From Bacteroidota bacterium (GTDB lineage Bacteria; Bacteroidota; Ignavibacteria; Kryptoniales; JAKASW01), in the NCBI GenBank assembly GCA_021845665.1, contig JAJZVO010000047.1:1-33525 (forward strand): a stretch of 33,525 nt of DNA, read 5' to 3'. Below the pieces are notes generated by a model that was given only the letters and a program-made list of their open reading frames with translations, was not told the origin of the DNA and ran no database searches. Positions 223 to 27,369 of the stretch are shown one piece after another. The translations under genes and the position numbers were made by a program. How positions within the stretch are numbered: the first letter of the stretch is position 1; every line of letters starts with the position of its first letter.

Positions 223-1026
223 TCAGGTTTGTCCGTCCGGTTCCGCAGAGAAGAGTTCTTGGGCAGTTAGTCCCAGGATTTGGCGTTTTTCATCATCGGT
301 AATCTTCGCTCCAAGGATCCTACCGACTTGCTGGTCCGGCGACATGAATGGCATATCTGTGCCGAAGCAGATCCGCTCTGCCCCCGCATGCTTAACGAGT
401 CTCTCAATGAGGCCGTACCATGCGAGGGAATTGCAGGTCTCAAGGAAAATGTTGTTGCACGAGCGGACGGCGATGTAGTAGGAGCCTTCGTTTGTTATGC
501 CCGAATGGCCTAGAAGTATTCTTGCCGAATGGAATTCCTTAGCCACTTTAATGAGCGGGGCAACATGAATCTCTCCGTAAGTATGTGCCAGAACGACTGC
601 ACCAGTATGATTTGCGTACTCATAAAGCGGGAAGTAGTTGTGATGATCGAACGGCAAGCCGTTACCATCGTCGTGTATCTTGAATTGCTTAATGTTGTGT
701 CTTTCAGCTAGGTCAAGTATCTCTTTTGTTTCCTCTGGATAGTTCGGTTTTACGACCAAATAGGGAAAGAATAAATCCGGATAAGCCGCGTGAGCTTCAA
801 TCACCATTCTATTTCCGGCAATAGCATCATTTCTGATGGATAGAAGACTCGAACCGTACAGTCGCGTAATTCCTATTCTTCGCGCGTTTTCTATCACCGC
901 CGCAACTCCATTACTTGGAATCAGGAAATTGTAATATCTCCCGACATGCATGTGAGCGTCAATAACAATTTCGTCACGGAGTGGCCCCCCTGTGAACAGA
1001 TTCTCGATAAGTGGCCCGGTCTCCAT
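223..1026 (-). CDS. Amidohydrolase family protein (amidohydrolase 2 type), metal site intact
   Basis: A cytoplasmic TIM-barrel metal hydrolase of the amidohydrolase-2 group, which includes sugar-acid lactonases and ACMSD-like decarboxylases. Counting from a GTG at 1035, the metal-site residues are all visible: D26-x-H28-x-H30 (DAHMHVG), H121 (KIHDDG), H151 (LAHTYG), H177 (LGHSG) and D227 (FGTDMP). I prefer the ATG at 1026, three codons inside, because GGAG lies 7 bases before it; the GTG would overlap the stop of the upstream gene and leave almost no spacing. It is the last gene of the minus-strand operon, directly after a degenerate relative. Likely role is hydrolysis of a lactone or similar C-O/C-N bond in sugar-acid catabolism; the substrate is not readable. 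The fold assignment is firm, the reaction is inference. Confidence 0.88.
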   Translation of the reverse strand: METGPLIENLFTGGPLRDEIVIDAHMHVGRYYNFLIPSNGVAAVIENARRIGITRLYGSSLLSIRNDAIAGNRMVIEAHAAYPDLFFPYLVVKPNYPEETKEILDLAERHNIKQFKIHDDGNGLPFDHHNYFPLYEYANHTGAVVLAHTYGEIHVAPLIKVAKEFHSARILLGHSGITNEGSYYIAVRSCNNIFLETCNSLAWYGLIERLVKHAGAERICFGTDMPFMSPDQQVGRILGAKITDDEKRQILGLTAQELFSAEPDGQT

Positions 1027-1031
1027 ACCTA

Positions 1032-1826
1032 TCACTCCATTCTAATGTTTCGAATAAGCTCTCGAAGATTTCCGCCGCCTACTAACTTCTTAATATCCAT
1101 ATCGACATCGGCGTATGTTATCGTTGAGACGGCTGCGGCTGGCGTATATACGGGATAGTTGGTTCCGAAAAGGAGCTGGCCCAGGCATCCTTTATCCTTA
1201 AGAAAGGGGATAAGATCCGCAGCTGAGAACCAGGACGAATCGACGTAGAGGTTTCTGTTTGTCTGCCACAGAGGCAGGAGATACCTCAACTGTCTATAAT
1301 TTATTCCTGTAGTTATCACCGGAAGATAAGGGTGTTCATGGCACAATGTGTAGACATCATTCCAATCGAATTGTTGAAACGGCAATAACATTGGTATCCG
1401 GCAACGCTCTAGAACGGACAACAACTTGCCCATAGACCAAGAGGCGAGCGAGTAGGTGTGAAGTCTCGGGAAGGAAATCACCGCCTTCACGCCATTGTCG
1501 AGCATATCTCGGACGAACGTTTCGCTTTCTGGCATTTCACCACTTCCAGGTGGAAGGACGCACCAAATGGGCAGAAGCTCATCCGATCCACTGACCAGGT
1601 CGACGATTTCCCTGTTTCCGGTCGCTGGGTCGTAGTCTCGACTCGTGGCGTGGAACACAAGAGCTTGCGAGATGCGATAGTACGCCATATCTTGTTTCAA
1701 CTGATCTAACGACCATGGCTCGCCTTCGGGACGGTCAGCCCTCTTACCAACCATGCAATTGCAGTCGAATAGTTGAACGACAGCGCCTGCCTTCTCTTCG
1801 TTGAGACTATCGTTTCCTTTTTTCAC
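1032..1826 (-). CDS. Degenerate amidohydrolase-fold protein lacking metal ligands
   Basis: 264 residues, collinear with the next gene downstream (223-1026) and of the same fold, but the catalytic positions are altered. The DxHxH motif is replaced by D21-C-N-C-M (DCNCMVG), the LGHSG histidine region reads TTGINY, and the final aspartate motif FGTDMP is FGTNYP (N222). It therefore probably binds no catalytic metal in the usual way. It starts at GTG 1826 with AAGGAG four bases upstream and overlaps the 3' end of the symporter gene by 20 bases, suggesting translational coupling. Its stop at 1032-1034 adjoins the start of the intact amidohydrolase. A regulatory or structural partner of that enzyme is the simplest idea, but this is inference; a changed metal-independent activity is possible. 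Confidence 0.8.
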   Translation of the reverse strand: MKKGNDSLNEEKAGAVVQLFDCNCMVGKRADRPEGEPWSLDQLKQDMAYYRISQALVFHATSRDYDPATGNREIVDLVSGSDELLPIWCVLPPGSGEMPESETFVRDMLDNGVKAVISFPRLHTYSLASWSMGKLLSVLERCRIPMLLPFQQFDWNDVYTLCHEHPYLPVITTGINYRQLRYLLPLWQTNRNLYVDSSWFSAADLIPFLKDKGCLGQLLFGTNYPVYTPAAAVSTITYADVDMDIKKLVGGGNLRELIRNIRME

Positions 1827-3583: not shown

Positions 3584-4606
3584 TTATTTAAGTTGAATCA
3601 CTTTATGCTCTTCGGCTGATTTGTATATCGCTAGGGCAATGGCCACAGCCTTTCTGCCATCCTCGGCTGTAATCGCCGGTTTGCGGCCTTCCGATATGGA
3701 CTGGACAAACTCTTGATTTTGCGCATTGAACGAACCCATGCGTACTTCCGCAAACATCCCTTCGCCCCTCCAATCAATTGGGCGTTGCTGAAACAGAGTC
3801 TCCCACGATTTTGAGTCAACACTCATTCTTAGGGCGCCATACCCATCGACGTCCAGCATTCCTCGTTCACCTACTACCAGTGAACGAAATGCAGTTGCTG
3901 GAAAACCAGGCATCTTGAGGTCGCCGCTGCTCCACACGGAGCTTAAAGTGCCGTTTTGCCATCTTATGATGGCCATAGTAGAGATCTCTATTCCGGAAGA
4001 AGTCTTCGTTATTTCCGCAGTAACGTCCTCTGCCTCTGCGTCCAAAAACCATCGAAGTCTATCGATATTGTGAATACCATAACCGAAAAATACTCCCAGA
4101 TTTTCTGGCAGTTGTTGCCACTTTGGATAAGTCTCTAGTGCGTTCGGCTGAAGTGCAAACTCTTGTATCATAGATACCCGCCCGATCACTCCAGCCCGAA
4201 TAAGCTCAAATGCCCTTCGGTTGGTTATCCGGTACCTTTGGGTGAAAGCAACCATGAGCACCAGATTACGAGTGGCAAACTCTCTCTCCATCGTTTCGCA
4301 TTCCGCTACGGTTGTGGCCATCGGCTTTTCGACTAGCGCGTGTTTGCCCGCCTCAGCGCACATCATGGCGTGCTTGAAGTGAAATGAATGGGGTGAAGTG
4401 ATGATTACGGCGTCGACATCTTTGTCCGCAGCCATTTGTTCGACTGAAGCGAAGTTCATCACATTGAATTCTCCAGCCAAGCTGGCAGCTCTCTTGCCTC
4501 CGGCTATTCCTGCTAGGACAGTTCCCTTCAGGTACCTCCTTATAGAGACTGCATGAGTGCGTGCAATGAACCCGGAACCTATTATGCCGATTCTAAATGA
4601 TCTCAT
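3584..4606 (-). CDS. Gfo/Idh/MocA family NAD(P)-dependent oxidoreductase
   Basis: 340 residues. The Rossmann nucleotide-binding motif is at the N-terminus (IGIIGSGFIARTH, residues 6-18), followed by the family signature E93-K94-P95 (VEKPMA) with the lysine that positions substrate. A C-terminal sheet domain contains GIHNIDRLRWF, corresponding to the usual active-site H-x-x-D element. Family members oxidise or reduce hydroxyls of sugars, inositols and sugar acids. The ATG start at 4606 lies 38 bases after the regulator gene, and the symporter follows after 16 bases, so the three are probably co-transcribed. A second, clearly different member is encoded at 10495-11511; together they could act on different hydroxyls of the same sugar or in an oxidation/reduction pair. 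Confidence 0.9.
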   Translation of the reverse strand: MRSFRIGIIGSGFIARTHAVSIRRYLKGTVLAGIAGGKRAASLAGEFNVMNFASVEQMAADKDVDAVIITSPHSFHFKHAMMCAEAGKHALVEKPMATTVAECETMEREFATRNLVLMVAFTQRYRITNRRAFELIRAGVIGRVSMIQEFALQPNALETYPKWQQLPENLGVFFGYGIHNIDRLRWFLDAEAEDVTAEITKTSSGIEISTMAIIRWQNGTLSSVWSSGDLKMPGFPATAFRSLVVGERGMLDVDGYGALRMSVDSKSWETLFQQRPIDWRGEGMFAEVRMGSFNAQNQEFVQSISEGRKPAITAEDGRKAVAIALAIYKSAEEHKVIQLK

Positions 4607-4644: not shown

Positions 4645-5424
4645 CTAGGCTGCAAAGCACTTTGCAATGTCGGTGACTCCGAGTTCAAGCGAGATGGCAA
4701 TTCCTTCCCGAGGTAACTGTTCCTTGACTTCGTCTAGGACAGATTTTTTAGCCCGGACCTTCGGCATTGATAGGCTCAATGCGGCGAAGGCATAATGTTC
4801 ATTATTGAAGATCGGGGCTCCGACACAGATAACTCCGTCATGCCCCTCTTCGTTGTCTATCGCATATCCCGATTTCTTTATATTGTCCAATTCTTCGTTC
4901 AATCTACCGATTCCGGAAATTGTCTTTCGTGTGAAGGTGGTGAATGTGTAATCTCTGAAAAGCGTTGCGCGTTTTTCCTTTGGGAGGAACGCGGCAATGG
5001 CCTTGCCGATCGAAGTTGCATGAAAAGGTGCGGCGTCGCCCACACTGTCGCTGATTCTGAACGCTTCTTCTGATTCTAAGATGTTGACGTAGACGGGGCG
5101 GTCATCCACGAGCCGGGCGAGGTTTACCGTCTCCCCAAATCGTTTATGCAACATCTCCATGTGCGGTCTTGCTACGGCAATCAGTCCTCTTCCTCCGCTG
5201 AGACTGCGCGTCAGGAGCATGAATTTCGAGCTTAGTGTATAAGTGAAATCCTTTTTGTCTTGCTCGACGTACCCGAGTTGTTCGAGTGTACTAAGGAGTC
5301 TGAAGACTGTCGGCTTTGGGTAGGACACTCGCTCCGTGATCTCTCTTAATCCTAGACCAGTATCTTCGCTTAAGGCCTCAAGGATTTCAAAAGTTTTGGA
5401 AACCACTTTGACTTTAGTTATCAC
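4645..5424 (-). CDS. IclR family transcriptional regulator
   Basis: A 259-residue DNA-binding regulator. The N-terminal winged helix is clear (FEILEALSEDTGLGLREI, then YPKPTVFRLLSTLEQLGYV), and the C-terminal effector domain has the IclR pattern HATSIGKAIAAFLP and GYAIDNEEGHDGVICVGAPI. The open frame runs upstream to 5508, but that extension has no family similarity. GTG 5424 is preceded by GAGG four bases before it and gives the normal IclR length, so I choose it. It is first gene of the minus-strand operon and divergent from the aminotransferase operon, the usual position of a local regulator controlling both directions. The effector is probably a catabolic intermediate of the locus (inference). 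Confidence 0.92.
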   Translation of the reverse strand: MITKVKVVSKTFEILEALSEDTGLGLREITERVSYPKPTVFRLLSTLEQLGYVEQDKKDFTYTLSSKFMLLTRSLSGGRGLIAVARPHMEMLHKRFGETVNLARLVDDRPVYVNILESEEAFRISDSVGDAAPFHATSIGKAIAAFLPKEKRATLFRDYTFTTFTRKTISGIGRLNEELDNIKKSGYAIDNEEGHDGVICVGAPIFNNEHYAFAALSLSMPKVRAKKSVLDEVKEQLPREGIAISLELGVTDIAKCFAA

Positions 5425-5479
5425 ACTACCTCTACAGCTCGTTGGACTGACAGTTCGTCGTTTTGGACATACATACCAC

Positions 5480-5508
5480 AATATAAAACGGCGACTTTCT
5501 GAAAACAA
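5480..5508 (-). promoter_or_regulatory. Candidate promoter of the iclR-like operon
   Basis: On the minus strand TTGTTT (5503-5508) is followed after exactly 17 bases by TATATT (5480-5485), leaving about 55 bases to the GTG start of the regulator. Spacing is ideal for a sigma-70 type promoter, although this lineage may use a different -10/-35 consensus. Confidence 0.4.
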
Positions 5509-5627: not shown

Positions 5628-6947
5628 GTGATTAAACTAGCAGAAAGGCGCATTCCCGGGCCGCGCTCCGTAGAGTTGCTCCAAACTGCAAGAGAATATG
5701 AACCGCCAAGCATGGCGGACCAAATACCCGTGGTTTGGGATCATGCAGAGGGCGTCTGGATTACCGATGTCGATGGCAATATCTACCTCGACTTTACTTC
5801 TGGAGTCCTCGTGACGAATGTCGGGCACTCTAATCCAGAACATGTAGCCGCCATAGAAAAGCAGGCACACAGACTCCTCAACTGTTATTCATTTCCAACT
5901 CCTGAGAGAATTAATCTTTCTAAGAAGCTTGTTGAGTTACTTCCGGAGAATATCGACAGAATCTTTCTTCTGACAACGGGTGCAGAGGCAACGGAAGCGG
6001 CGATCCGTATTGCGAAGAGGTACTCCGGCAAGCATGAGATACTTGCTTTCTATGGTGCCTTCCATGGTCGCACCTATGGACCGATGAGTGTTTCCGGCAG
6101 CACGAACACCCGACGCAAGTTTGGGCCACAGCTTCCTGGTGGAGTGATGGCACCGTACGGAAATTGTTATAGATGTATTTACGGAAAGACTTTTCCCGAA
6201 TGCGACTACTATTGCATCAAAGCTCTCGATAGAATCATTGAATCAAGTACCACGGGAGACATGGGGGCTGTTATCGTCGAGCCGTACCAGGGAACAGCGG
6301 GTTTCGTATTTCCTCCGAAAGGGTGGCTGAAAGAATTGGAGAAGTGGGCCGCCCGTCGAGGTCTGATTCTCATAGTCGACGAAGTTCAATCGTCGTTCGG
6401 CAGAACGGGTAAGTTGTTTGCAATCGAATGGGAACAGATAAAGCCTCAAATGATTTGCCTCGGAAAGGGAATCGGCAGCGGAGTCCCGACATCCGCATTA
6501 GCCGGCGAAAGTAAGATCTTCGAGAGCATGCTTCCAGGTGAAATGTCGAGCACTACCGGCGGTAATCCGCTTTCAAGTGCGGCAGCCCTCGCGGTTATTG
6601 ATATTATGAAGAAGGAAGACCTTCCTGAGAATTCAAGGATTCAGGGGGAGCATCTTCTTTCACGGTTGACCGCACTTTGGAAGAAGTTTGAATTTGTGGG
6701 AGACGTCCGAGGGATGGGCCTGGTAATCGGAATCGAAATAGTTAAAGACAAAAAGAGTCGTAATCCTGATCCGGCTTTGTGCAAGAAGATCATTAGACGC
6801 TGTGCTGAGCTCGGTCTTATGCTAGGACGAGTCGGCATCTACGGTAATGTGATTCGGGTTGCACCGCCGCTAGTGATCAAGCAGGAAGAATGCGACATCG
6901 CGGTTGAGATATTCTCAACGGCGATGGACGAGGTGTCCAGATCCTGA
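5628..6947 (+). CDS. Class III PLP-dependent aminotransferase
   Basis: 439 residues, the normal length for the 4-aminobutyrate/acetylornithine aminotransferase class. Visible are the phosphate-binding region TTGAEATEAAIRIAKRY, AFYGAFHGRTYG, the cofactor-ring aspartate in IVDEVQSSFGRTGK, and the PLP lysine K280 in CLGKGIGSGVP. A four-cysteine segment (NCYRCIYG...ECDYYC) sits between them, as in some archaeal and bacterial GabT-like members. GTG 5628 has AAGGTG four bases upstream. It is the first plus-strand gene after the divergent promoter. The reaction is transfer of an omega-type or sugar amino group to a keto acid; the amino donor is unknown. Its place at the head of a polysaccharide locus suggests an amino-containing product is processed (inference). 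Confidence 0.92.
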   Translation: MIKLAERRIPGPRSVELLQTAREYEPPSMADQIPVVWDHAEGVWITDVDGNIYLDFTSGVLVTNVGHSNPEHVAAIEKQAHRLLNCYSFPTPERINLSKKLVELLPENIDRIFLLTTGAEATEAAIRIAKRYSGKHEILAFYGAFHGRTYGPMSVSGSTNTRRKFGPQLPGGVMAPYGNCYRCIYGKTFPECDYYCIKALDRIIESSTTGDMGAVIVEPYQGTAGFVFPPKGWLKELEKWAARRGLILIVDEVQSSFGRTGKLFAIEWEQIKPQMICLGKGIGSGVPTSALAGESKIFESMLPGEMSSTTGGNPLSSAAALAVIDIMKKEDLPENSRIQGEHLLSRLTALWKKFEFVGDVRGMGLVIGIEIVKDKKSRNPDPALCKKIIRRCAELGLMLGRVGIYGNVIRVAPPLVIKQEECDIAVEIFSTAMDEVSRS

Positions 6948-7163
6948 ACCTCTTCCAATTGCGTGGAGTTCGATTCCCGCTTTACGATGCATGCGAAAGA
7001 GGTACTTGTCTTAATTTCTGCAGTTCGGCCCAAGTTTAAGCGGGGGACGGCATTTATTCCCTTACGAGGACGCAATTGATCTTTAGAGGAGTTTGCGGGT
7101 ATTCTAATGCGGAACATCCCTCTTAGATGAATCAAATCAGATAACTGAAGGAGCTTTGAAAAA

Positions 7164-8147
7164 TTGAAAATTGTTGTAACTGATTATATAGAACCTGATT
7201 TGCATTGGGAGAAAGAACAGGTAGCAGCCTTGGGGGGGGTGCTCGAGTCTTACCAGATGAAATCGGCGTCGGCGGCCAAGCTTGCTGATACTCTGTCTGG
7301 GGCAGATGTCGCGATCGTAAATATGGCCAAGATCGATAGGGTCGTCCTTGATGGTATGAAAAAGTGTAAGTTGATAATAAGGCACGGAGTCGGGTACGAG
7401 AACATCGATATCGCGGCCGCAACCGAGCGTGGGATCCAGATATGCTATGTGCCTGATTATTGTGCAGACGAAGTGGCTGAACAGGCGATAATGTTGCTGC
7501 TTGCAACCTACCGGAAGTTCGGAAAACAAATTGAGAGCATGAGCTCCTCCATTAGAAAAGGGGAGTGGGACTTTTCCGGGATGGGAGGAGTGAAGAGAGT
7601 CCGCGGAAAAAAGGGAGGTCTGATAGGCTGCGGTAGGATCGGGAGCCGGGTTCTCACGGTAATGCGGAGTCTCGGGCTCGAAGTCTTGGTTAGCGATCCT
7701 TACTTGACTAAGCAACAGCAGGAAGAGTTGGGGATTAAAACAGTCCCGCTCGAAAAAGTCGTTTCCGAGGCTGATCTGATCAGTCTTCATTGCTCGCTTG
7801 ATGACAGCACTCGTCATTTAATAGGAGAAAGAGAACTCAGCCTGATGAAGAAAGATGCTGTTCTGGTCAATACTGCGCGAGGCCCGCTCATTGATGCGAG
7901 AGCGCTGGCCAAAGCTTGCAGGATGGGGCGAATAGCTGGCGCTGGTATTGATGTATTTGAAAGTGAACCGCCTAAGCAGAACTTTGACTTGATAGGACTG
8001 GATAACGTGATACTGACACCTCATCTCAGCTGGTTTTCTGAGGATGCCGCCTGGGAAATAAGAAAAAAAATAATCGAAGACGTGGAAAGGTACGTAAAAG
8101 GTGAACCACCAAGGTTTCCGTTGAACAGGGTAGACACGAATGGGTAA
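7164..8147 (+). CDS. D-isomer-specific 2-hydroxyacid dehydrogenase
   Basis: 327 residues in the D-2-hydroxyacid dehydrogenase family, closest in feel to the CtBP-like/phosphoglycerate dehydrogenase-like branch. The NAD-binding glycine motif is LIGCGRIGSRV, the substrate arginine is in VNTARGPLID, the glutamate in GAGIDVFESEP, and the catalytic histidine is H287 (LTPHLSW). It interconverts a 2-keto acid and a D-2-hydroxy acid in the cytoplasm. The start is TTG 7164 with AGGAG about ten bases upstream; no better in-frame ATG exists. The 216 bases separating it from the aminotransferase show no gene. The M20 hydrolase gene begins 8 bases before this stop, so the two are probably coupled. It could reduce the keto acid left by the aminotransferase (inference). 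Confidence 0.9.
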   Translation: MKIVVTDYIEPDLHWEKEQVAALGGVLESYQMKSASAAKLADTLSGADVAIVNMAKIDRVVLDGMKKCKLIIRHGVGYENIDIAAATERGIQICYVPDYCADEVAEQAIMLLLATYRKFGKQIESMSSSIRKGEWDFSGMGGVKRVRGKKGGLIGCGRIGSRVLTVMRSLGLEVLVSDPYLTKQQQEELGIKTVPLEKVVSEADLISLHCSLDDSTRHLIGERELSLMKKDAVLVNTARGPLIDARALAKACRMGRIAGAGIDVFESEPPKQNFDLIGLDNVILTPHLSWFSEDAAWEIRKKIIEDVERYVKGEPPRFPLNRVDTNG

Positions 8148-9426
8148 GAAGGAATTGCCGGAAGGAAACTTTACATTTGAAGATGTCCTGACCAGGAACT
8201 CTGAAGATGCCGCCGCATTTCTCAGCGATCTCATTCGGTTTTCTTCAACAAGGGGGAATGAAGGCCCCGTCAACAGGTTTATTTATGATAAGATGCGGGA
8301 TCTCGTCAGTAAAGCTGATCTGGTACGGATACCTGACTCGTTTAAGAAACACAAAGAGTACAAATGGTTTATTAGCAACTTGAGCTATGAAGACACTCCC
8401 AATGTCAGGCTTACCCTCGGGGATGGCGACATTGAAGCAAAGAGCCTGATACTGAATGCCCATAGTGATGTTGTGCCTGCCTCCCAAAATCAGATCGGCG
8501 CTTTCGAACCGACGATCGAAAATGGCGTTGTGTACGGACGTGGGGCATGTGATGACAAGGGGCAGATAGCCGCGGTTTATCTTGCACTGAGATCTCTCAA
8601 GGCCCTTGGTCTGAAACCGAAAGGTAAGGTGACCGTCGACATCGTGATTGAGGAGGAGAACGGGGGAAACGGGACGTTGTTCGCGATCCAGGATGCCCTT
8701 AAGGCGGATGCTGCTATCGTTATGGAGCCGACAGAGTTGAAGATTATACCCGCTGTAAGAGGTGCGGTTTGGTTCACACTTACGTGTGTAGGGAAACCAG
8801 GGCACAGCGGAAGGGCGAGGGATGTTGTGAGTGCACTTAAGCTTGCGGTAAAGGCGATGAGCGCATTGGAAAAGTATCATGACGATTTGCTGACTAGCTC
8901 GCGGGGGAAGAATCCGCTATTTGATCAGTTCGAGAATCCGATGCCGGTGACTTTTGGCGTCATGAATGCCGGTGATTGGCCTGCGACTGCCCCGGCAACA
9001 GCAATTGTCAAGGGCGTGTTTGGCTTTCTTCCCAACGTCCATATGAGGGAAGTTCAGGATGGAATGACTGACGCTCTAAGAAATCAGGGAGACGCGTGGC
9101 TTCGGGAGCATTTCGAACTGAAATTTGACATGCTCGCAAGCGACGGAAACGAAATTCCGGTTCATCATCCGCTGGTAAAATGTTTGGAGTCCGCGTCGCG
9201 AAGGTCAGGTTTCGATGCGGAAATATCTGCAATGACAGCTTCATGCGATGCATGGTTTTATAACAATCAGCTCGGAATTCCAACAGTTGTCATGGGTGCC
9301 GGAAGCCTCAAGCACGCTCACTCTAACGAAGAGCAAATCAAGATTGCGGACATCGAGAAAATGGGGATGACGCTTATCCATTTCATCGACGAATGGTGTG
9401 GGTTGGAGGAGATCGCTGTGTCATGA
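8140..9426 (+). CDS. M20 family metallohydrolase (ArgE/DapE/ACY1-like)
   Basis: 428 residues with the full M20 di-metal site: H108 in NAHSDVVP, D138 in GRGACDDKG, the glutamate triplet at 171-173 (IEEENGG), the glutamate in MEPTELK, and the late histidine in LKHAHSNEEQ. An inserted lid/dimerisation domain follows GKPGHSGRARD. Such enzymes remove acyl groups from N-acyl amino acids or cut short peptides. ATG 8140 overlaps the dehydrogenase gene by 8 bases, and its own stop overlaps the next ATG (ATGA), so it sits in a tight operon. Next to an aminotransferase it may deacylate a substrate whose freed amino group is then removed (inference). Carnosinase-like peptidase function cannot be excluded. 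Confidence 0.9.
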   Translation: MGKKELPEGNFTFEDVLTRNSEDAAAFLSDLIRFSSTRGNEGPVNRFIYDKMRDLVSKADLVRIPDSFKKHKEYKWFISNLSYEDTPNVRLTLGDGDIEAKSLILNAHSDVVPASQNQIGAFEPTIENGVVYGRGACDDKGQIAAVYLALRSLKALGLKPKGKVTVDIVIEEENGGNGTLFAIQDALKADAAIVMEPTELKIIPAVRGAVWFTLTCVGKPGHSGRARDVVSALKLAVKAMSALEKYHDDLLTSSRGKNPLFDQFENPMPVTFGVMNAGDWPATAPATAIVKGVFGFLPNVHMREVQDGMTDALRNQGDAWLREHFELKFDMLASDGNEIPVHHPLVKCLESASRRSGFDAEISAMTASCDAWFYNNQLGIPTVVMGAGSLKHAHSNEEQIKIADIEKMGMTLIHFIDEWCGLEEIAVS

Positions 9427-12664: not shown

Positions 12665-13333
12665 ATGGAATTTGAATCTGATTCCGAACTGTTTTCTTAC
12701 CTTGAAGCGAATGCCTATGCGGGCGTTTTTTCCGATGTCCTTGACGAAATAGGGCAACGCTTTCGGGTCGTTTCACCTCATTCCGGGATTCGACCGCTCG
12801 ACAACACATTTGTTGTCGTGGGAAGAGCGGTGACTTTGCTGAATGAGAAGGATGATAATGAGAAAGAACCTTACGACACTGTCATCAAATGCATAGATTC
12901 TCTTGGACCGAACTCACTTCTAGTAACGACTGGTAGCGACAATCTTGATGTTGGAATAATGGGTGAATTGACAGCCACCGCTCTTCGTGCCCGGAAATGT
13001 CGAGGTGCGATCGTCAACGGTTATAGTCGGGATGTCAGGAAATTAATAGGAATGAAGTTTCCTACTTTCGCGTGGGGACCTTCACCGATAGACACCACCG
13101 GGAGAGCAAGAGTCACCAATTACAATATTCCAATTATTATCGGTGGCGTTCGCATTTCTCCGGGTGATCTGATCTTTGCGGATCTCGACGGAACAGTGGT
13201 CATTCCTAGGGAGCTTGAGATAGACGTGGTTGAAAAAGTGATCGAGAGAATCAGCACTGAGAATCTTGTAAGAAAGGAATTGGCGGCGGGTCGAACCATG
13301 GCTGAAGTTTGGAGAAAATACGAGGTCCTTTGA
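12665..13333 (+). CDS. RraA-like protein / HMG-CHA aldolase family
   Basis: 222 residues with the RraA fold pattern: DVLDEIGQ near the N-terminus, GRAVT, then the core DVGIMGELTATALRARKCRG followed by AIVNGYSRD, where the Arg-Asp pair is the metal and carboxylate-binding element of the aldolases in this family; the more usual VDG is VNG here. A C-terminal DLIFADLDGTVVIPRE matches the family. Members are class II pyruvate aldolases/oxaloacetate decarboxylases acting on 4-hydroxy-4-carboxy-2-oxo acids, or inhibitors of RNase E; in a catabolic operon the aldolase role is favoured. ATG 12665 has AAAGGTG seven bases upstream. Its stop overlaps a TTG of the secreted protein gene, linking the cytoplasmic and envelope halves of the operon. 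Confidence 0.88.
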   Translation: MEFESDSELFSYLEANAYAGVFSDVLDEIGQRFRVVSPHSGIRPLDNTFVVVGRAVTLLNEKDDNEKEPYDTVIKCIDSLGPNSLLVTTGSDNLDVGIMGELTATALRARKCRGAIVNGYSRDVRKLIGMKFPTFAWGPSPIDTTGRARVTNYNIPIIIGGVRISPGDLIFADLDGTVVIPRELEIDVVEKVIERISTENLVRKELAAGRTMAEVWRKYEVL

Positions 13334-13341
13334 AATTGAAG

Positions 13342-16206
13342 ATGAAGGTGTTTGCTTCGTTAATTGTGGGGTTATTCCTCGTCTCTGCTTCCAAATGTTC
13401 TGCTCACCAAGGGTCACAGGTGGCGCCATCAACTTCTCCTTCATGCGGGGACAATCATATTGGTCAGATGCTTGTCAATACACCGTTGCCCGTTCCACCT
13501 TATTATATCGGGTCGTTCTACTGGGGATCGGCGCCCAAGGATGGGCCCCGTTCACGTCCAGCTTGGGATATTTCAACCAGTAAGATGAGGGACAGACTGT
13601 TTGCAAGATTAGAACAAATCGGCATCAATATGCTCACGTACGCGTATGTATACAGGAACAATGGACCGGTTTACCCGAACAATAATCCGAAACTAAAATC
13701 TCAGGTGAAGCTTTGGCTCGGGCACAATCCCGTGAAGGACTTTCTCGATGAATGTGAAACCCATCATATGTCCGGATATCTCGGATTAGCTTTGGTCCCA
13801 GACGGATTATCTGGTAAGAGATATTTCGATTATCTAAACGACATCACTACGGACATGGTAGGAAGGTTTAAGAAATATCCTGCGTTCAAAGGCTTCGTTC
13901 CACCGGTGGAATCCAGATCACCGAACCTCAATACCGAAGAGTTTTCGGAGTTAGCCCAGACTGCATTAAGGATTAAACCAGATTTGACAGTAATGGATTT
14001 TCCTAATGGACCGTTTGCTTCAGTGGTCAGGACGATCTTGAACCATATCCACTCCCGTAGAGTAAATATCGAAAACGTGCAGTTCTATATCGGGAATTTT
14101 TCGGAGTTCAGCTACGCTTTGTCCAATTATCGGGAAATGGAGGGCTTTCGCGGGCTCACCGATTTCGTTCAGGGTCTGTCGGACCGCGTAGGAACAATAG
14201 TCCATACCCATTACATGAATGGATACGGCGAGCGTGCCATACCGAAAGACCAAGTCTATCGAGTGTCACAGGGGGTCTTGCTGACGGCAACAACTTGTGG
14301 AATTCACTTCTTCAATTACTTTGATCTTTTCAATGGCTATGATATTCTGACGCACAGAAATGCATTTTGGCGTTGGGCTGCATGGTGTAAAGGCGTGCTG
14401 AGTGTCCAGAGGTATGTCCCATATTATGCAGGTTCAAAGTTGGTAGCCGCGGTAACTACGATCATTCCGAGGGAAACTGCCTTGGGCGGGACAGCTTTTG
14501 TCAACATGGCTTGGACACCTCTCGCGATAGCCCACATTCCACAAGCGTTTGCGGCTAATCTTGGAAACGTCCACACTAGAGTCTGGATAGTACCCTCGCC
14601 GGTCGGACTTTCAGAGAAACAAGTATCTTCGATTACCAGGTTCGTTAAAGATGGCGGTACGCTGATTTCTGTGCTTGACCCGAAGACGAACATCATCCCT
14701 AATCCGAATAATGATTTTGACTTCAAACTGGCAAAGTTCACTGTTGGAAAGGGGGAAGATCAAATCCCGCCGGATTTTCAGAAATTGTTGCGATGCGATT
14801 ACACTCACTACGTCGAGGACACATTACATTTCCTGTCGCGGATGTCGGCCTTTACAGGAGAGAAGGATATTGTAGCCGACGGGTTCGAATTGAATGCCAA
14901 ACCGAGAGATATAGTACTGGCGAGATGGTCGGATGGTAAACCGGCCGTATTGCTGCGCCACTTGGGCAAGGGCATTCTCTACATCATTCCCGGTGGCCTT
15001 CCATTCCTTGCGGAAGTCCTACCCCTTCTTGCTAGAGAAAACATGAACATGCCTGTAAAGGTCCGGAATTTACCGCACAGCTACATTCTCGAACTGTATC
15101 AGACGAAAGGACCATATTCGCACTCGTTGTTTTTAATCCTCGGAAGCAAGAAGGGCAGTACTGCGCGACACGTTGAGTTGGAACTTCCGTCGAGTATGAG
15201 GAGGAGGTTCGCAGTCTATCTTGATAACACCAAGCTCTGCGTCATAAAACCTGTAGTTAGAGGTGGTAACATCATACTTCGTCTGCCACGGATCAAGAAT
15301 TACGGTGCCTTGGTAATGTCCAACAACACTTTTCCGCTTCTTCATCCCGACGAATCATCGCGATACGTACTAGCGGGTAGCAGACAAAGAGTTTCTGTCA
15401 CATTGTTTAATGCTTTGGATGCCGCTATTAACGACACTTTGACCATGACGCTGCCTGAGCAATGGAGTCACATGACAACCTCCGTGCGAGAGCCTTATAA
15501 GCTTTTACCGGGTGAAAAGCGCACGTTCTGGTTCTATCTGACGGTGCCGAAAAACGTCGAACACGATACTTACTTCATTCACTTCACGACTCTAGGCCTG
15601 ACGCAACGTGAAATGTTCATTCCCGTCAACGGGAAGCCAAGGGTCATCATGCAAGGCCAAGCCGCTCCGACCCCGATGCCTCCTAGAGGAAAAATCGGAT
15701 ATCAATGGATAGGGGTCGCTGCCGGAGAAACGGGCAAACTTCGTTATGGCGGAATTGCCTATGTTGATAATAATCAGTACGACAACGATCCAGGTGTTTC
15801 ATTCTACTACAATGGTCGGTGGTCCGCTCCGCAGTCGGATAACGGGATAACATTTCGAACAGGAAAATATTCAACTCTCGCAGGCGGAGCCCGCTTCTGG
15901 ATAAACGGTGTGAACACTCATGCTAATTATGAATTAAGGATGATTTACAAGGCAAATTCCAACGGAAGAATACAAGTCTGGAACGGATCGCACTTCAAAT
16001 CGATTTCCGAAATACCGGTATCTCATTCCTGCGACACGCTCAATTGTGTCTTGCACGCTGGTGATTTTGTCAACGCTGATGGCACAGGTAATGTAGACGC
16101 GCTTGCGGAATTCTGTATTCCGCAAATCTCTGTAGCGAAGATTGATGTCAGAGAGGTGCCCTCTGGCGCCTTTTCGCCGACGGACTCGCTGCAAAGCACG
16201 AAGTAA
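13342..16206 (+). CDS. Large secreted TIM-barrel protein with GATase-like and C-terminal beta domains, putative glycan-active enzyme
   Basis: About 954 residues. The ATG at 13342 gives a signal peptide (MKVFASLIVGLFLVSASKCSA); a TTG at 13330 overlapping the RraA stop, with GAGG upstream, is the alternative. Residues about 40-370 look like a (beta/alpha)8 hydrolase barrel: YYIGSFYWGSAP, INMLTYAYVY, a strand end carrying E190 (FVPPVESRS) and another with D219 (VMDFPNGPF). Residues about 400-570 resemble the glutamine-amidotransferase-like domain of beta-galactosidase-type proteins (VWIVPSPVGLSEKQ, FVKDGGTLISVLDP, GKGILYIIPGG). Residues 660-770 form an Ig-like domain, and the last 180 residues are probably carbohydrate-binding. 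I cannot place it in a named family; glycoside hydrolase activity is inference. Confidence 0.75.
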   Translation: MKVFASLIVGLFLVSASKCSAHQGSQVAPSTSPSCGDNHIGQMLVNTPLPVPPYYIGSFYWGSAPKDGPRSRPAWDISTSKMRDRLFARLEQIGINMLTYAYVYRNNGPVYPNNNPKLKSQVKLWLGHNPVKDFLDECETHHMSGYLGLALVPDGLSGKRYFDYLNDITTDMVGRFKKYPAFKGFVPPVESRSPNLNTEEFSELAQTALRIKPDLTVMDFPNGPFASVVRTILNHIHSRRVNIENVQFYIGNFSEFSYALSNYREMEGFRGLTDFVQGLSDRVGTIVHTHYMNGYGERAIPKDQVYRVSQGVLLTATTCGIHFFNYFDLFNGYDILTHRNAFWRWAAWCKGVLSVQRYVPYYAGSKLVAAVTTIIPRETALGGTAFVNMAWTPLAIAHIPQAFAANLGNVHTRVWIVPSPVGLSEKQVSSITRFVKDGGTLISVLDPKTNIIPNPNNDFDFKLAKFTVGKGEDQIPPDFQKLLRCDYTHYVEDTLHFLSRMSAFTGEKDIVADGFELNAKPRDIVLARWSDGKPAVLLRHLGKGILYIIPGGLPFLAEVLPLLARENMNMPVKVRNLPHSYILELYQTKGPYSHSLFLILGSKKGSTARHVELELPSSMRRRFAVYLDNTKLCVIKPVVRGGNIILRLPRIKNYGALVMSNNTFPLLHPDESSRYVLAGSRQRVSVTLFNALDAAINDTLTMTLPEQWSHMTTSVREPYKLLPGEKRTFWFYLTVPKNVEHDTYFIHFTTLGLTQREMFIPVNGKPRVIMQGQAAPTPMPPRGKIGYQWIGVAAGETGKLRYGGIAYVDNNQYDNDPGVSFYYNGRWSAPQSDNGITFRTGKYSTLAGGARFWINGVNTHANYELRMIYKANSNGRIQVWNGSHFKSISEIPVSHSCDTLNCVLHAGDFVNADGTGNVDALAEFCIPQISVAKIDVREVPSGAFSPTDSLQSTK

Positions 16207-16241
16207 AGCTGCACTCTAATCGTCTTAGATTATCCCGGATT

Positions 16242-16272
16242 GGAACACCAACAGCAAGACGTACGGTGTTCC
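16242..16272. other. Intergenic inverted repeat between the barrel protein and AGE genes
   Basis: GGAACACC (16242-16249) and GGTGTTCC (16265-16272) form a perfect 8-bp stem around a 15-base loop, about 36 bases before the ATG at 16308. No T-run follows, so it is not a typical intrinsic terminator; it may be an mRNA processing, stability or binding site, or chance. Confidence 0.35.
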
Positions 16273-16307
16273 TCTCAACACACGCTTTTGAAATGGAGCG
16301 ATAAAAG

Positions 16308-17687
16308 ATGGACAGGCGCAAGTTTGTTGCTGCTTCAATCGGAAGTATTCTCGCCGCCAAATATTCTGGCAGCGAAGGTTTGTTGAACAGAGTCACCGCA
16401 GACCGGCGGAAAATGGATCCCGGAACTACCCAGCTGAAAATCGGCGACCTGTCTCTAAAGAAACTTCGCGATGATTATCACTACTACCTTTTTGAAGACT
16501 TCCTTCCCTTCATGGATAAGTACGTGATCGACCATAAGTACGGCGGTTTCATGTGTAACGACGACAGGGACGGAACGAGGCTCAACACGAAAAAACGCAC
16601 CTGGTTCGAAGGAAGGGGCATCTGGGTCTACTCGTTTCTCTACAGGCACTTCGGAAAGGACCAGAAATACCTCGATGTCGCGACGAACTCATTGAAGCTG
16701 ATAATGAAGACAGAGCCCACCGGGGACGAACTTTGGCCGTCCGTCATCACTCGCGAAGGCAAGCCACTGACACCACCTTCAAAGAGAATTTACGGAAGTG
16801 TTTTCGTTGCGGAGGGTTTGAGCGAATATTCTTTCGCTACAGGGGAACAAAAGTACTGGAACACCGCGAAAGGGATCATCCTAAAATGCTGGAAGATCTA
16901 TAATCGCCCCGACTATTATCCACGAATTGTGGCAGACTATTCCGGTCCCAAAGTGATCCCGTTTCCGGGAGCCAAAATCCAAGGCCATGCAATGGTAATG
17001 ATCACTACTATCAACGGAATGCTTGAACACCGAAGTGATCCAGATCTGGAGGAGATAAGAGCAAAGTGCATTGACGCCGTAATAAACAAGCACTTCAACC
17101 CCGAGTTCAGACTAAACAATGAGCTTCTCAACCACGACTATTCGCGTCCCGACAATTATCTGTCCGAGTTTGTATACACAGGTCATTCTATCGAAACCTT
17201 TCGACCGATAATGGAACAGGCGGTCGCATCCAAGGATTTGAAATTGTTCCGAACCGCGGCGGAGAGATTCAAACGCCATGTGGATGTTGCATGGGACCAG
17301 GTTTACTCGGGAGTTCTCAGGAGCCTAAATAACGTGGACATGGACCTATGGGAAATCAAGAGGACTCCAAAGGTCCTCTGGGCGCAGGAGGAGTCGTTGA
17401 ACGGCATGATGGTCCTTATTGAGCAGGTCGGGGACGAGTGGGCAAAGAAATGGTTTGCGAAAATGTATGAGTATATGGTTGCCAAATATTGGCTTAAACC
17501 TTACGGGTATCATTTATGGATCACTGCAGCGGATAGGAAGGTTACTTTCACTCCACATTACGATCGCATAGAGAACTATCATTTGCCCCGCCACCTCATG
17601 CTGACATACCTGGCAATAGAGAAGCTGATAAGAAATGACGGCCGACCAGCATGGCCTGAAGCAGCGGATAAAGTGAATCAGAATTGA
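16308..17687 (+). CDS. Tat-exported N-acylglucosamine 2-epimerase (AGE) family protein
   Basis: 459 residues. The N-terminus DRRKFVAASIGS is a twin-arginine signal (R3, R4), so the protein is probably exported folded. The rest is the (alpha/alpha)6 barrel of the AGE/cellobiose epimerase family: WFEGRGIWVYSFLYRHFG, H293 in YTGHSIE, W358-x-Q-E-E (VLWAQEESLNG) and H425 in NYHLPRHL, the positions of the general acid/base histidines and substrate clamp. Family members epimerise sugars at C2 or isomerise aldoses and ketoses. Export is unusual, since most known members are cytoplasmic. Its stop overlaps the next start (ATGA), so the two are translated together. Likely substrate is a free or reducing-end sugar released outside the inner membrane (inference). 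Confidence 0.85.
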   Translation: MDRRKFVAASIGSILAAKYSGSEGLLNRVTADRRKMDPGTTQLKIGDLSLKKLRDDYHYYLFEDFLPFMDKYVIDHKYGGFMCNDDRDGTRLNTKKRTWFEGRGIWVYSFLYRHFGKDQKYLDVATNSLKLIMKTEPTGDELWPSVITREGKPLTPPSKRIYGSVFVAEGLSEYSFATGEQKYWNTAKGIILKCWKIYNRPDYYPRIVADYSGPKVIPFPGAKIQGHAMVMITTINGMLEHRSDPDLEEIRAKCIDAVINKHFNPEFRLNNELLNHDYSRPDNYLSEFVYTGHSIETFRPIMEQAVASKDLKLFRTAAERFKRHVDVAWDQVYSGVLRSLNNVDMDLWEIKRTPKVLWAQEESLNGMMVLIEQVGDEWAKKWFAKMYEYMVAKYWLKPYGYHLWITAADRKVTFTPHYDRIENYHLPRHLMLTYLAIEKLIRNDGRPAWPEAADKVNQN

Positions 17688-19885
17688 TGCCAGAACGTAT
17701 CCCCACCCGTTTCGTTTCAAGGCTTGTCGCTATTTCTGCAATTCTAATTATCGCCCAGCCGGCGATGAAAGCATCTGGAGAAGTTATCGGCGTCTCGGTT
17801 ACCCCATTCGAAGTCAGTGTCGGAGACACTGTCAAAATCACGGTTCAATCTGCGGATGGGAGCCCGCTCAGCGCTGAGCTCCTTATCCCCGACAAAGGTG
17901 TAATTACGCTTAGCCTGACAAAAGTAAAGAGTTCGATTTATGATTCACGCTTCATTATCAGCAAAAATGATCCACAAGGACTTTATGCAATTCAGGCTTG
18001 GGAAGGCGATAGTGCCAGACCGGCGGCTGTAGGAAAAGCAGCGTTCCTGCTCAAGAAGATCATCGGTGATTTCTGTATGATCGGAGTCTTTGATCCGAAC
18101 GGTCTTAAATCCGATATGGAGAAATACATTGGTGAGATAAAAAGTTTCGGGGCGAATTTTCTTATAGCTCATACGATAATCACCACCAGCAGGGTTTACT
18201 ACAGATCGAAAATCTGCGACATGGATAGTTCCCCTCCAATCGACCAGAGTTACCTCGGTACTCTATTGAAGTGCGCCGACGAAAACGGGGTCTCTGTCAT
18301 GCTGTCGGTCAGCTGGGACATGACCAGAAAGATCCCTCCTCCCGAGCGGATGGAAAACACATATGAAATCATCAAAGAGCTATACAAGCTTTACGGGAGT
18401 CATCCATCACTAGTGGGGTTCTACTCGTACCAGGAAGGGAGCGGAATATATTATGCACCATACGTGAGAGAGTTCTGCGACAATGTCAAGAAGGTGAATC
18501 CCGGATTGCTCACCGCTTGCGCGCCATACACGGACAATCCGTTGCTCGCGGGTTACCTGAGTGCCATAAGAAGTCTCGACGTAATAATCTACCAGGGAAT
18601 GGTGATGGCTAGTTACCGACCTGATAACCGCATCAAATTTCCTTTCAGGAGGGTCAAAGACTTCGGCTCAATCGCGTCAGGTGCATCGGAACTTCAAAAC
18701 AAGATAGTCTTAACACACGTTGAGATTTTCGGGTACCTGGAGAATGCTCTGAAACATTTGTACATCGCTGATTACAACAACATCTATCAGCAATTCCTGA
18801 GCGCCGCGACGGTTCCGCACAATGACGGAATTATCATGTTCAATTACAGCGGAGTTATTTACAATACCCTCAGGCGCTATCCCCAATACCGGAAGGAATT
18901 CGATCGAAGCCGTGAGGCGGTCCTTAACGGCATGAAGGCATTTGATTTAATCGGAAAGGCTTCCGAACGTCGGAACCAACTGGCAGTCTATCTCCCTTGG
19001 ACAGATTTTCAGGAATACAATTGGGAGCGCTACTATTACAATGCCCTTGATGCGTTCAGGACATTGGGAATCCCTGTCGACATTCTTCCATGGGCACCAA
19101 CTCACAACGAATCTTACCCGCCATTTTACCCTCTCCGAGAAAATCGCCGGGTCTTGACGCGGTTGTTGAAGGAGAAAGAGGTGTTAGTCCTCCCAAGCTT
19201 ATCGGGTTTAAATGAAACGGACAGTCAGTTGATAAAACACTTCATTGATGATGGAGGTAGCGCTATCGCATTCGGGTCCGAGATACCGATGGGCACGACA
19301 TACTATCGTACTCTTCTCTTTGGGATAAACAAAACCGGCGATCGGCGGACACATACTGCCATCATCGATGAAGTTCCTTTCGGCAGGACCACTCCCGCCG
19401 GCAAGAAGTGGGACCTCGGTAAGGTGACGCTTCCGGTGTGGAGAGCCGAGGGCGCAAAGGTCCTCGCGAGATTTGAAGACGGGTCTCCTGCAGTAACCCT
19501 GAACATCTATGGTAAGGGCAAGTTCGTCTCTTTCATGACCGATGTGCGGATTGCCGGCCGCAAATTCCCCTCTTTGGTGCGCGATGTCCTTAACTACATC
19601 GGGGTACAGCGCTGCGTTGATATCGTCGGAACAAATCAGAATTGCGACGTGGCAGTTTCCAAAACCAAATTGGGCTTTGTGACAGCAGTGGTGAATCATA
19701 ACAATTCAAAACTCGAAATCAGTCTTAAACCGTTGACGCCTTATTATCAAGGTGAAACTCAGAATTGGAAGGATCTTGTCGCCGGAAAAGAAATAGCAAA
19801 GTTGAAGAATAACGCAGCACTCAAAATACAAATCATGCCTCGCAGCTACAGGTTGATTGATATGTCTGATCAAACAGGGAGATGA
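17684..19885 (+). CDS. Secreted multi-domain TIM-barrel protein (DUF4434-like architecture), putative glycan-active enzyme
   Basis: 733 residues, starting at ATG 17684 and overlapping the epimerase stop. Order: signal peptide (about residues 1-31, hydrophobic VAISAILIIAQPAMKA), a small beta-sandwich (VTPFEVSVGDTVKITV, about 35-120), a barrel of about 300 residues (MIGVFDPNGLKSDMEKYIGEIKSFGANFLI; VSVMLSVSWD), with a candidate acidic residue E251 in GFYSYQEGSG, then a GATase-like domain (YLPWTDFQEYN; VLVLPSLSGLNETD; HFIDDGGSAIAFG) and a small C-terminal beta domain. The domain order resembles the protein at 13342-16206, although the barrels differ. The barrel pattern resembles DUF4434-type hydrolase-like proteins, but this rests on motif impression only. 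Confidence 0.75.
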   Translation: MMPERIPTRFVSRLVAISAILIIAQPAMKASGEVIGVSVTPFEVSVGDTVKITVQSADGSPLSAELLIPDKGVITLSLTKVKSSIYDSRFIISKNDPQGLYAIQAWEGDSARPAAVGKAAFLLKKIIGDFCMIGVFDPNGLKSDMEKYIGEIKSFGANFLIAHTIITTSRVYYRSKICDMDSSPPIDQSYLGTLLKCADENGVSVMLSVSWDMTRKIPPPERMENTYEIIKELYKLYGSHPSLVGFYSYQEGSGIYYAPYVREFCDNVKKVNPGLLTACAPYTDNPLLAGYLSAIRSLDVIIYQGMVMASYRPDNRIKFPFRRVKDFGSIASGASELQNKIVLTHVEIFGYLENALKHLYIADYNNIYQQFLSAATVPHNDGIIMFNYSGVIYNTLRRYPQYRKEFDRSREAVLNGMKAFDLIGKASERRNQLAVYLPWTDFQEYNWERYYYNALDAFRTLGIPVDILPWAPTHNESYPPFYPLRENRRVLTRLLKEKEVLVLPSLSGLNETDSQLIKHFIDDGGSAIAFGSEIPMGTTYYRTLLFGINKTGDRRTHTAIIDEVPFGRTTPAGKKWDLGKVTLPVWRAEGAKVLARFEDGSPAVTLNIYGKGKFVSFMTDVRIAGRKFPSLVRDVLNYIGVQRCVDIVGTNQNCDVAVSKTKLGFVTAVVNHNNSKLEISLKPLTPYYQGETQNWKDLVAGKEIAKLKNNAALKIQIMPRSYRLIDMSDQTGR

Positions 19886-19892
19886 AGCCATT

Positions 19893-21224
19893 ATGATTGC
19901 GCGACTTGGGAGAGCCTCTTCATTTTACGATCACAACTCGGTGATTTTCAAAATGTTGAAATCGGTGGTCGTTCTTTCCTTTTTTTCTTTTGTAATGCTC
20001 GAGGGATGTTCAAAATCGCCTTATTCGAACGGGATAGTTGGTCCGACAAGTTCGACTCCGGTTACTCAAAAGATTCCAGGGTTTATCGGTTTGTACCATA
20101 ATTCGACAGGCACGATCTACGGCGGCTGGGGCTGGCCTTCAGGAGAATTGATTCAAACCGCATTCAACTTCGGATTAAATGGTGTCATATCGCAAGCTGA
20201 ATACTATGGATACACATTTCAGACAAACCTGGTGGACAATTGCACGATTTGGAACACAAACAAAGTCTACGGAATATTGCGGCCGCCCACGGAAGGTGGG
20301 GTCGTCAACCAGCCCGGGGATACTCTCCTTCTTCAGCCTTTTGCGCAATCGCCCGGAATGATCCAGGCTGCTCATCGGTTCTCGGAGTTGTCGAAGGAGT
20401 ATCCGCAGATCTCCGGTATTATCGTCGATGATTTCTTTGAGAATTTTCAAGGGGGGAAAATAACTGTTTCTCAGTTGCAGGAGATCAGGGAGGCTCTCGA
20501 GGGAAAAACCCTTGATGGAAACGGGAATGTCGAGGATACATCTCAGGCCACTACTCCAAATCTGAGACTCTATGTGGTCGTGTATGAGGATCAACTCGGC
20601 ATTTCCAGCCAGTCGGTCGTTAACTTGATCGATGGAGTGAACCTATGGATGCACCATCAGAACGAGAATTACACTAATCTTGATCAGTATATAAGTACTG
20701 TCAAGCAGAATTATCCAGGCAAGGGGGTAATTGTGGGAGTGTATTTCAAGAACTCTCTCGAACAGATGACGCCAGTCAGCATCAAGTATATGATTCAGAA
20801 CTCCATAAGCATGTATGATCAGGGAGACATTGGTGGAGTGCTTCTCTTCTCGGCGCCATGGCTGACCCAACAATACATAACTCAGGAACGCTGGGACTCA
20901 CTCGCAATTCCTCCATTCCTGGACAGCCTCTACTATCCGAATCTTGGTGAGGCAACCGGAACGGTAATCGACGCTCGTACCGGCAATCCGGTTGCCAATG
21001 CGCTCGTCTCCGTACAGAGACTGACAGAAAAGAACACACAGCTCGTTTCGAGAAAGTTCACTTCGAATGACGGTGAATACAGCTTTGGTGGCTGGGCGGG
21101 GAAAAGTAATGGCTCATCTTATGAAGTCGAGGTTGCTAAGGCTCCATACCAACCTGAGACGTTTGACATTCAATTGCAACCAGGAATGCAAATCGTATTG
21201 CCTAACATACAATTAAAGCAATAA
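19893..21224 (+). CDS. Lipoprotein with uncharacterised TIM-barrel-like domain and C-terminal CarboxypepD_reg-like domain
   Basis: 443 residues from ATG 19893 (AGGGAG 11 bases upstream); a start at 19953 would give the more classical lipoprotein signal MLKSVVVLSFFSFVMLEGC. Lipobox LEGC predicts acylation and an outer-membrane or periplasmic location. The barrel-like domain carries D179-D180 (GIIVDDFF) and E232 (VVYEDQL), the pattern of strand-end acidic residues in retaining or inverting glycosidases. The last 90 residues (GEATGTVIDARTGNPVANAL) are a carboxypeptidase-regulatory-like beta domain. It resembles the protein at 24224-25303 over the barrel, and the receptor gene begins 38 bases downstream. 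In position it could take the place of a SusD-like surface glycan-binding lipoprotein, but its sequence is not SusD-like. No named family recognised. Confidence 0.75.
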   Translation: MIARLGRASSFYDHNSVIFKMLKSVVVLSFFSFVMLEGCSKSPYSNGIVGPTSSTPVTQKIPGFIGLYHNSTGTIYGGWGWPSGELIQTAFNFGLNGVISQAEYYGYTFQTNLVDNCTIWNTNKVYGILRPPTEGGVVNQPGDTLLLQPFAQSPGMIQAAHRFSELSKEYPQISGIIVDDFFENFQGGKITVSQLQEIREALEGKTLDGNGNVEDTSQATTPNLRLYVVVYEDQLGISSQSVVNLIDGVNLWMHHQNENYTNLDQYISTVKQNYPGKGVIVGVYFKNSLEQMTPVSIKYMIQNSISMYDQGDIGGVLLFSAPWLTQQYITQERWDSLAIPPFLDSLYYPNLGEATGTVIDARTGNPVANALVSVQRLTEKNTQLVSRKFTSNDGEYSFGGWAGKSNGSSYEVEVAKAPYQPETFDIQLQPGMQIVLPNIQLKQ

Positions 21225-21262
21225 CATGATCCAATTGTCACCATTTACCTCAAGAGCGTATA

Positions 21263-24163: not shown

Positions 24164-24223
24164 CAGCTCAATTCATGATCGCTTCTATTCTCGGTCATTA
24201 CGCTATGTAGGAACCCAACTCAC

Positions 24224-25303: not shown

Positions 25304-25369
25304 AGGACTTGCTTTGAAAGTCCAGAGTGAGAACTAAAAGCGGCGGTAACCTTGAATAAGCAAGCAACA

Positions 25370-25386
25370 TCGCATTTAAAATGCGA
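25370..25386. other. Small inverted repeat in the intergenic region before the T9SS protein
   Basis: TCGCATTTAAAATGCGA (25370-25386) can pair over about 7 bp with a 3-base loop. The 155-base gap holds nothing else recognisable except AGAAAGGAAGGGA before the ATG at 25459. It is AT-rich and weak, possibly a minor operator or processing element. Confidence 0.25.
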
Positions 25387-25458
25387 GTATTATGTCAGAA
25401 GTTTTCTTGCGAGTGACCTCTGAGATTCTTAACCACAACAGAAAGGAAGGGAACCATC

Positions 25459-27297: not shown

Positions 27298-27308
27298 CCT
27301 TTGCTGAA

Positions 27309-27342: not shown

Positions 27343-27369
27343 TCGGCTAATCTTCCGGAGAATAGAGTG

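Follow-up and report, generated by a model that had tools for sequence, protein, structure and literature searches.

A metal-less amidohydrolase-fold protein kept beside an intact PF04909 amidohydrolase, probably as its non-catalytic subunit

Background

A dead protein of the amidohydrolase superfamily can be kept for structural reasons: an inactive dihydroorotase, for example, is the partner of some aspartate transcarbamylases. Within Pfam family PF04909, three papers describe AibH1H2, the hydroxylase of the Aib monooxygenase, as a live and a non-catalytic subunit that both belong to the family and are encoded by adjacent genes (PMC7782822, PMC12141560, PMC10811679), with the non-catalytic subunit being needed for activity (PMC7782822, PMC12141560). 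The ligands given there for AibH2 are Asp25, His27, His211, Glu265, Asp337 and His340 (PMC7782822). ACMSD forms homodimers in which both sites are live, and its essential Arg239 enters the active site from the subunit next to it (PMC11650718).

Here we describe a pair of adjacent genes from a Bacteroidota bacterium in which a PF04909-type barrel stripped of its metal ligands (A) precedes an intact one (B). The pair differs from the inactive dihydroorotase in that the partner is not a transcarbamylase but a live protein of the fold that A itself has. A search of the open-licence literature returned no description of such a metal-less/live pair in PF04909, whether fused or split. The reading we favour, at a probability of about 0.8, is that A has become fixed as a pseudoenzyme, a subunit without catalysis of its own, and that it and B form an obligate pseudo-dimer in which the chemistry is left to B, an amidohydrolase-fold enzyme with a mononuclear metal site. 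Throughout, the window is the whole 33,525-nucleotide stretch of DNA that was analyzed.

Results and discussion

The gene pair and its motifs

Both genes lie on the minus strand, A first (1032-1826, 264 aa) and B second (223-1035, 270 aa), each with a GTG start; the stop of A and the start of B share four bases (GTGA, 1032-1035), so the adjacent, overlapping frames that a first-pass annotation had placed at 223-1826 are both present. Such an overlap is the pattern expected for coupled translation, and an overlap of four bases is likewise found at the syntenic locus of another genome (L002). At its other end, A shares 20 bases of its start with the 3' end of the gene for a sodium:solute symporter. 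A fused gene broken by a frameshift was also considered and was ruled out, because the four-base overlap recurs at the syntenic locus and the same gene order is found at two further loci (L089 and L090).

The motifs of B are D26-A-H-M-H (that is, D26-x-H28-x-H30), K119, H151, H177 and F224-G-T-D with D227. In A the first is replaced by D21-C-N-C-M (residues 21-25), the place of the beta-5 His is taken by LLPFQQ and that of the beta-6 His motif by TTGINYRQLR (which includes R181), and F220-G-T-N (220-223) carries N223 where B has Asp. The two substitutions reported earlier for the upstream protein, DCNCM for DAHMH and FGTN for FGTD, are therefore real. For B, the reported D-x-H-x-H and final Asp held up, while the "three further histidines" proved a loose count, the family-conserved ones being two (H151 and H177).

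Family membership and fold

B scored well above the Pfam cut-off for PF04909 (Amidohydro_2; 81.8 versus 26.4 bits, E 9e-23) and carries the residue set of the family: D-x-H-x-H, two His and an Asp (H28, H30, H151, H177 and D227). A fell below the same cut-off (18.3 versus 26.4 bits, E 0.002) and lacks the metal residues (DCNCM, FGTN), a loss that is family-wide. That the two share one fold, as had been proposed, was borne out by alignment of the A profile with the B profile over 245 columns (E 9.6e-32), by the TIM barrel that AlphaFold2 predicted for A (pLDDT 92.3, pTM 0.89), and by the match of this model to solved structures: under scoring by VIA, 3irs came first (Z 23.1, rmsd 3.1, 240 residues aligned) and 3cjp next (Z 23.0, rmsd 3.1, 224 aligned), both being amidohydrolase-type TIM barrels, with the 2,6-dihydroxybenzoate decarboxylase 2dvt third (Z 22.0, rmsd 2.8, 240 aligned). 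3irs, which also ranks first among solved structures in the profile comparison with A (E 1.1e-11), is BB4693 of Bordetella bronchiseptica, an uncharacterised protein with FGTAYP, and so the final Asp is absent there too. At E 0.01 neither A nor B matched an NCBIfam family, the curated ACMSD model included.

A and B are kept together, mostly in one chain

With A alone as query, a search of 100 relatives matched 13 genomes. Only two matches were close orthologues (G400 at 81% and G402 at 73%); the others were at 22-34%, and nearly all of these lay inside frames of 473-601 aa, several of which were matched twice, the second time more weakly. In a sample of the phylum, an A match was found in 7 of 395 genomes, and the A3 query returned the same seven. 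A search of the class (391 genomes) with an alignment of 13 A-type domains at a threshold of E 1e-8 matched 41 genomes: 38 had an A-type match and three (G497, G530 and G631) had weaker, B-like matches only. The regions around the matches were then re-read with a profile of A-type domains, those scoring over 100 bits being taken as A-type.

This gave 42 A-type frames outside the window. In 35 of them the A-type domain comes first and an intact B-type domain follows within one protein of 473-632 aa; five are separate A genes directly followed by B (L085, L086, L089, L090 and L092); the remaining two (L088 and L097) stand at contig ends, and B halves are found on other contigs of the same genomes (L099 and L096). 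None of the 42 was a lone A gene. Thus the search that had been proposed for conservation of the pair came out in its favour. One genome, G402, holds a split pair as well as a fused protein. Most of the relatives sampled have the protein as a single chain, of which the split pair is the unfused form; the counts are not independent, since a few families of one class supply most of the loci.

The fused homologue L076, from the same genus and 29% identical to A, was modelled with AlphaFold2 at pLDDT 92.0 and pTM 0.92, and each half of the model individually matched amidohydrolase barrels. The high pTM only suggests a defined arrangement of the halves.

Some fused loci had features of their own. 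At L094 (4336-7951, genome G171) two more amidohydrolase-like genes, each coding for a single domain, come in succession after the fused protein. The fused proteins of L094 (6194-7951) and L095 (7116-8864) start with twin-arginine-like stretches (SRREFIRQ and NRRAFLRQ), which hints at export by the Tat route.

The lost metal site is fixed across the A family

Residues were counted over 43 A domains (the 42 plus that of the window, with the plasmid pairs L134-L136 standing outside these counts), and over 43 B partners, from which the single-domain matches L093, L101 and two L094 frames and the truncated L100 were left out. The A half of L098 begins past the first motif and is a gap in the His counts, hence 42 rows there. 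Among the A domains the first His was kept in 2/42, the second in 0/42 and the final Asp in 1/43 (L102). The first place is held by Tyr (19), Phe (9) or Asn (9) in most rows, the second most often by Met (20) or Tyr (8), and that of the final Asp by Gly (30) or Asn (5). The column that opens the beta-5 loop has His in none of the 43 A domains (six being gaps), and a His stands three columns past the beta-5 position in 16 of them. At residue 173, beside the beta-6 position and in a region where the A-B alignment is less sure, His occurs in 1/43.

The B partners kept their site: D-x-H-x-H was present in 42/42, and H151, H177 and D227 each in 43/43. The one gap in the first of these counts is L091 (6365-7783), a fused protein of 473 aa; its B half is without the D-x-H-x-H stretch in the alignment, through either a real deletion or an assembly error. 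It had been reasoned that homologues of the degenerate protein which normally keep the histidines would speak against the pairing idea; no such homologues were seen. Because the loss recurs in 42 other A-type domains, the loss of the metal site in A is more than chance.

The split clade (the window, L085, L086, L089 and L090) has D-C-N-C and FG[TS]N in all five A rows, its C-x-C being fixed. A new, cysteine-based metal site built on D-C-N-C was considered for A and set aside, as the two cysteines flank the former first His and would be expected to face away from the middle of the barrel.

A is under purifying selection

Pairwise dN/dS (Nei-Gojobori) for A was 0.24 between the window and L085, 0.10 between the window and L086, and 0.09 between L085 and L086, and for B it was 0.19, 0.07 and 0.10 respectively, the comparisons with L086 being near saturation of synonymous sites; L089 and L090 were saturated, so that no ratio could be computed. 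Three neighbouring genes compared between the window and L002 gave 0.11-0.16. By these coding-sequence comparisons A is under purifying selection, and the dN/dS near 1 that a decaying copy was expected to show was not found (0.24 and 0.10, the second near synonymous saturation).

These values bear on the idea that A is a decaying duplicate of B. The shared fold, the adjacency of the genes and the lost active site are what such a duplicate would look like, but dN/dS is low, the loss is common to 43 domains over several families that stand on one side of a tree branch, and A is fused to B in 35 of 42 frames. Simple decay, against which the first-pass annotation had already argued, was therefore ruled out on dN/dS together with the family-wide fixation of the loss, and we consider it extremely improbable.

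In a tree of 90 rows (L100 being left out), the 43 A domains fall on one side of a branch with an SH-aLRT of 68, a modest support for an A group in the alignment; the B domains require two changes, and proteins with a single, lone domain stand near both A and B. The five split pairs (the window, L085, L086, L089 and L090) form a clade in A (support 96) and in B (99). The split-pair clades among the A and the B domains and the position of A on one side of a branch mean that fused and split forms draw on one A family and that A and B travelled together.

Could A have a chemistry of its own?

Several polar residues of A are conserved: H59 (40/43), E97 (41/43), R181 (43/43) and S198 (42/43), most of them just past barrel strands. 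They could line a pocket that is active in its own right; A may then be a metal-independent enzyme with a changed mechanism that shares a pathway with B and acts, for instance, on a ligand bound through these residues. Furthermore, according to one paper, some characterised PF04909 enzymes work without a cofactor (PMC10811679), and thus lost metal ligands alone do not prove lost catalysis. However, the catalytic positions of the fold are replaced in A by hydrophobic or varied residues, and the constant linkage to B fits a subunit better than an independent enzyme. Of the two possibilities raised earlier, a pseudoenzyme partner or an enzyme with a changed mechanism, the former is thus favoured by the family-wide loss and the linkage, and the latter is kept as a rival that we regard as improbable.

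Comparison with AibH1H2

The likeness to AibH1H2 is one of fold and layout: two adjacent PF04909-type genes, the upstream product non-catalytic or degenerate and the downstream one catalytic, in the order of aibH1-aibH2 (PMC7782822). The A model also matches an AibH1H2 chain (8ful_G; Z 19.2, rmsd 3.4, 239 aligned) and SfbO (8sm6_D; Z 19.3, rmsd 3.4, 240 aligned). This raises the alternative that B is a dinuclear amidohydrolase-related oxygenase with A as its non-catalytic partner. The differences from that system are several: i) AibH1 keeps a Zn site, whereas A has lost the metal positions; ii) AibH2 is dinuclear, with a beta-6 Glu and a His three residues past the final Asp, whereas B has a mononuclear-type set in which His177 stands, by order, at the place of AibH2 Glu265, and a His three residues past the final Asp (position 230) occurs in 0/48 rows; iii) AibH2 takes electrons from a ferredoxin, and a Pfam scan of 19 proteins of the window, A and B included, found no Rieske or ferredoxin gene; iv) AibH1H2 consists of two chains, whereas the A/B family is mostly one chain. 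Since it has neither a Zn site in the non-catalytic subunit nor a dinuclear catalytic subunit, the A/B pair is not an AibH1H2; an oxygenase of that type was ruled out on the ligand pattern, and we give it a very small chance. By analogy, the pair may nonetheless work like AibH1H2 in keeping a non-catalytic twin.

Comparison with ACMSD and the invariant arginine

In its ligand pattern B resembles ACMSD and other PF04909 decarboxylases, with His, His, His and Asp plus the beta-6 His (PMC11650718). Unlike ACMSD, B lacks both an NCBIfam match and an Arg eleven residues past the beta-6 His, and the A/B pair would have one live site where the ACMSD homodimer has two.

The invariant R181 of A, which lies on the helix after strand 6 (177-189 in the model), may reach into the site of B. 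The HMMER alignment to 3ij6 places R181 on an Arg of that protein, whereas hhalign against the ACMSD-like proteins of the class places residue 176, not R181, on their Arg. In B, the column equivalent to R181 holds Arg in 30/43 and Tyr in 5/43, the B of the window being among the Tyr rows, and the A domain of an archaeal homologue (Halomontanus rarus) is without this Arg. Because the alignments disagree, most B partners have an Arg of their own and the archaeal A has none, donation of an arginine in trans is only a hypothesis. In its fullest form, which we think unlikely, A would be an arginine-donating pseudoenzyme, derived from an ancestral homodimer with mutual lending of Arg that turned lopsided and was fused in most lineages: A would have given up its metal site and kept R181, B would have kept the metal and in some lines dropped the Arg, and the outcome would be a one-site enzyme made from two barrels, in bacteria and in a haloarchaeon.

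Occurrence outside the phylum

Plasmid records were searched at the protein level with a fused protein as query, and four of them matched. In the haloarchaeon Halomontanus rarus the protein is fused (541 aa) and its gene lies beside one of mandelate-racemase type; a class-III aminotransferase and a further long amidohydrolase are encoded nearby. A Subdoligranulum record (Bacillota as named) holds a split, overlapping pair whose A has D-C-N-I-A and FGSN. In Nonomuraea (Actinomycetota) the A-type frame is degenerate (DAHRL, FGTG) and overlaps a longer frame that gave a weak match. In the fourth record, from Klebsiella, only the C-terminal half was matched (46% covered). The Halomontanus rarus plasmid (L134) has two consecutive long amidohydrolase-family frames, of 543 codons (5914-7542) and 571 codons (7592-9304), the second with a weak A-profile match in both halves.

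Neighbouring genes and possible pathway

In the window, the pair is preceded on the same strand by the sodium:solute symporter gene (PF00474; 1807-3567, minus strand), which is syntenic in four of the five other split loci (L085, L086, L089 and L090), by a GFO/IDH/MocA oxidoreductase gene (3584-4606, minus) running in the same direction as the pair, and by an IclR-type regulator gene (4645-5508, minus) whose best NCBIfam matches, BhcR and KdgR, are both below cut-off. On the plus strand follow a divergent class-III aminotransferase gene (5628-6947), a D-2-hydroxyacid dehydrogenase gene (7164-8147) and a gene for an M20 deacylase of ArgE/DapE type (8140-9426). The window also encodes an RraA-type aldolase and a heparinase II/III-like protein.

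Across 45 A-type loci (the 42 plus three plasmid records), many of them cut by contig ends, a class-III aminotransferase was present in 35: 31 were glutamate-semialdehyde-aminotransferase-like, the gene standing nearly always directly before the A-type gene, and four were of the window's own type. The heparinase II/III-like protein of the fused loci was found in 18/45 loci and the GFO/IDH gene in 16/45. Moreover, L090 has a KDPG aldolase and a KDG-kinase-type gene as neighbours, and L061 has enolase-superfamily and FAA-hydrolase genes. From these neighbours (class-III aminotransferases, GFO/IDH, KDPG aldolase, KDG kinase, enolase-superfamily, FAA-hydrolase and heparinase II/III-like) we infer that the pair works in the catabolism of carbohydrate acids, perhaps amino-bearing ones. 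For the reaction of B, the guess that we place first, and offer tentatively, is that it hydrolyses a sugar-acid lactone or carries out a similar ring opening.

Elsewhere in the window, the region 13309-30633 is a row of genes next to the catabolic ones, coding for GlcNAc-2-epimerase-type, DUF4434-like, Por-secretion-tail and heparinase II/III-like proteins and for one that looks TonB-receptor-like from its sequence. Two direct repeats were seen close to the two ends of the contig, one of 131 nt at 98% (1-131 and 32477-32607) and one of 150 nt at 99% with a spacing of 237 (33139-33288 and 33376-33525), and a transposase-like gene (DDE_3, 31272-32378) adjoins the copy at 32477. The contig probably ends in repeats. 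No Rfam match was found in the window.

Conclusions

Because relatives in other microbes carry the same pair, mostly fused, the dead half is best read as a kept working part rather than as a decaying gene. In the pseudo-dimer that we favour, B would carry the metal and do the chemistry, and A would be a twin subunit shaping the shared face, which may shape or stabilise the active site of B; the contact between A and B would be like that between the two subunits of ACMSD-like homodimers.

The architecture of a live barrel with a metal-less twin, usually in one chain, appears to be both undescribed and widespread within a very large enzyme family. A single "amidohydrolase family protein" label, as in the Halomontanus record, hides its pseudoenzyme half. 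Since fused and split forms coexist, even within one genome (G402), the family offers a clean system for studying what keeps a dead copy in place and by what route a homodimer turns lopsided.
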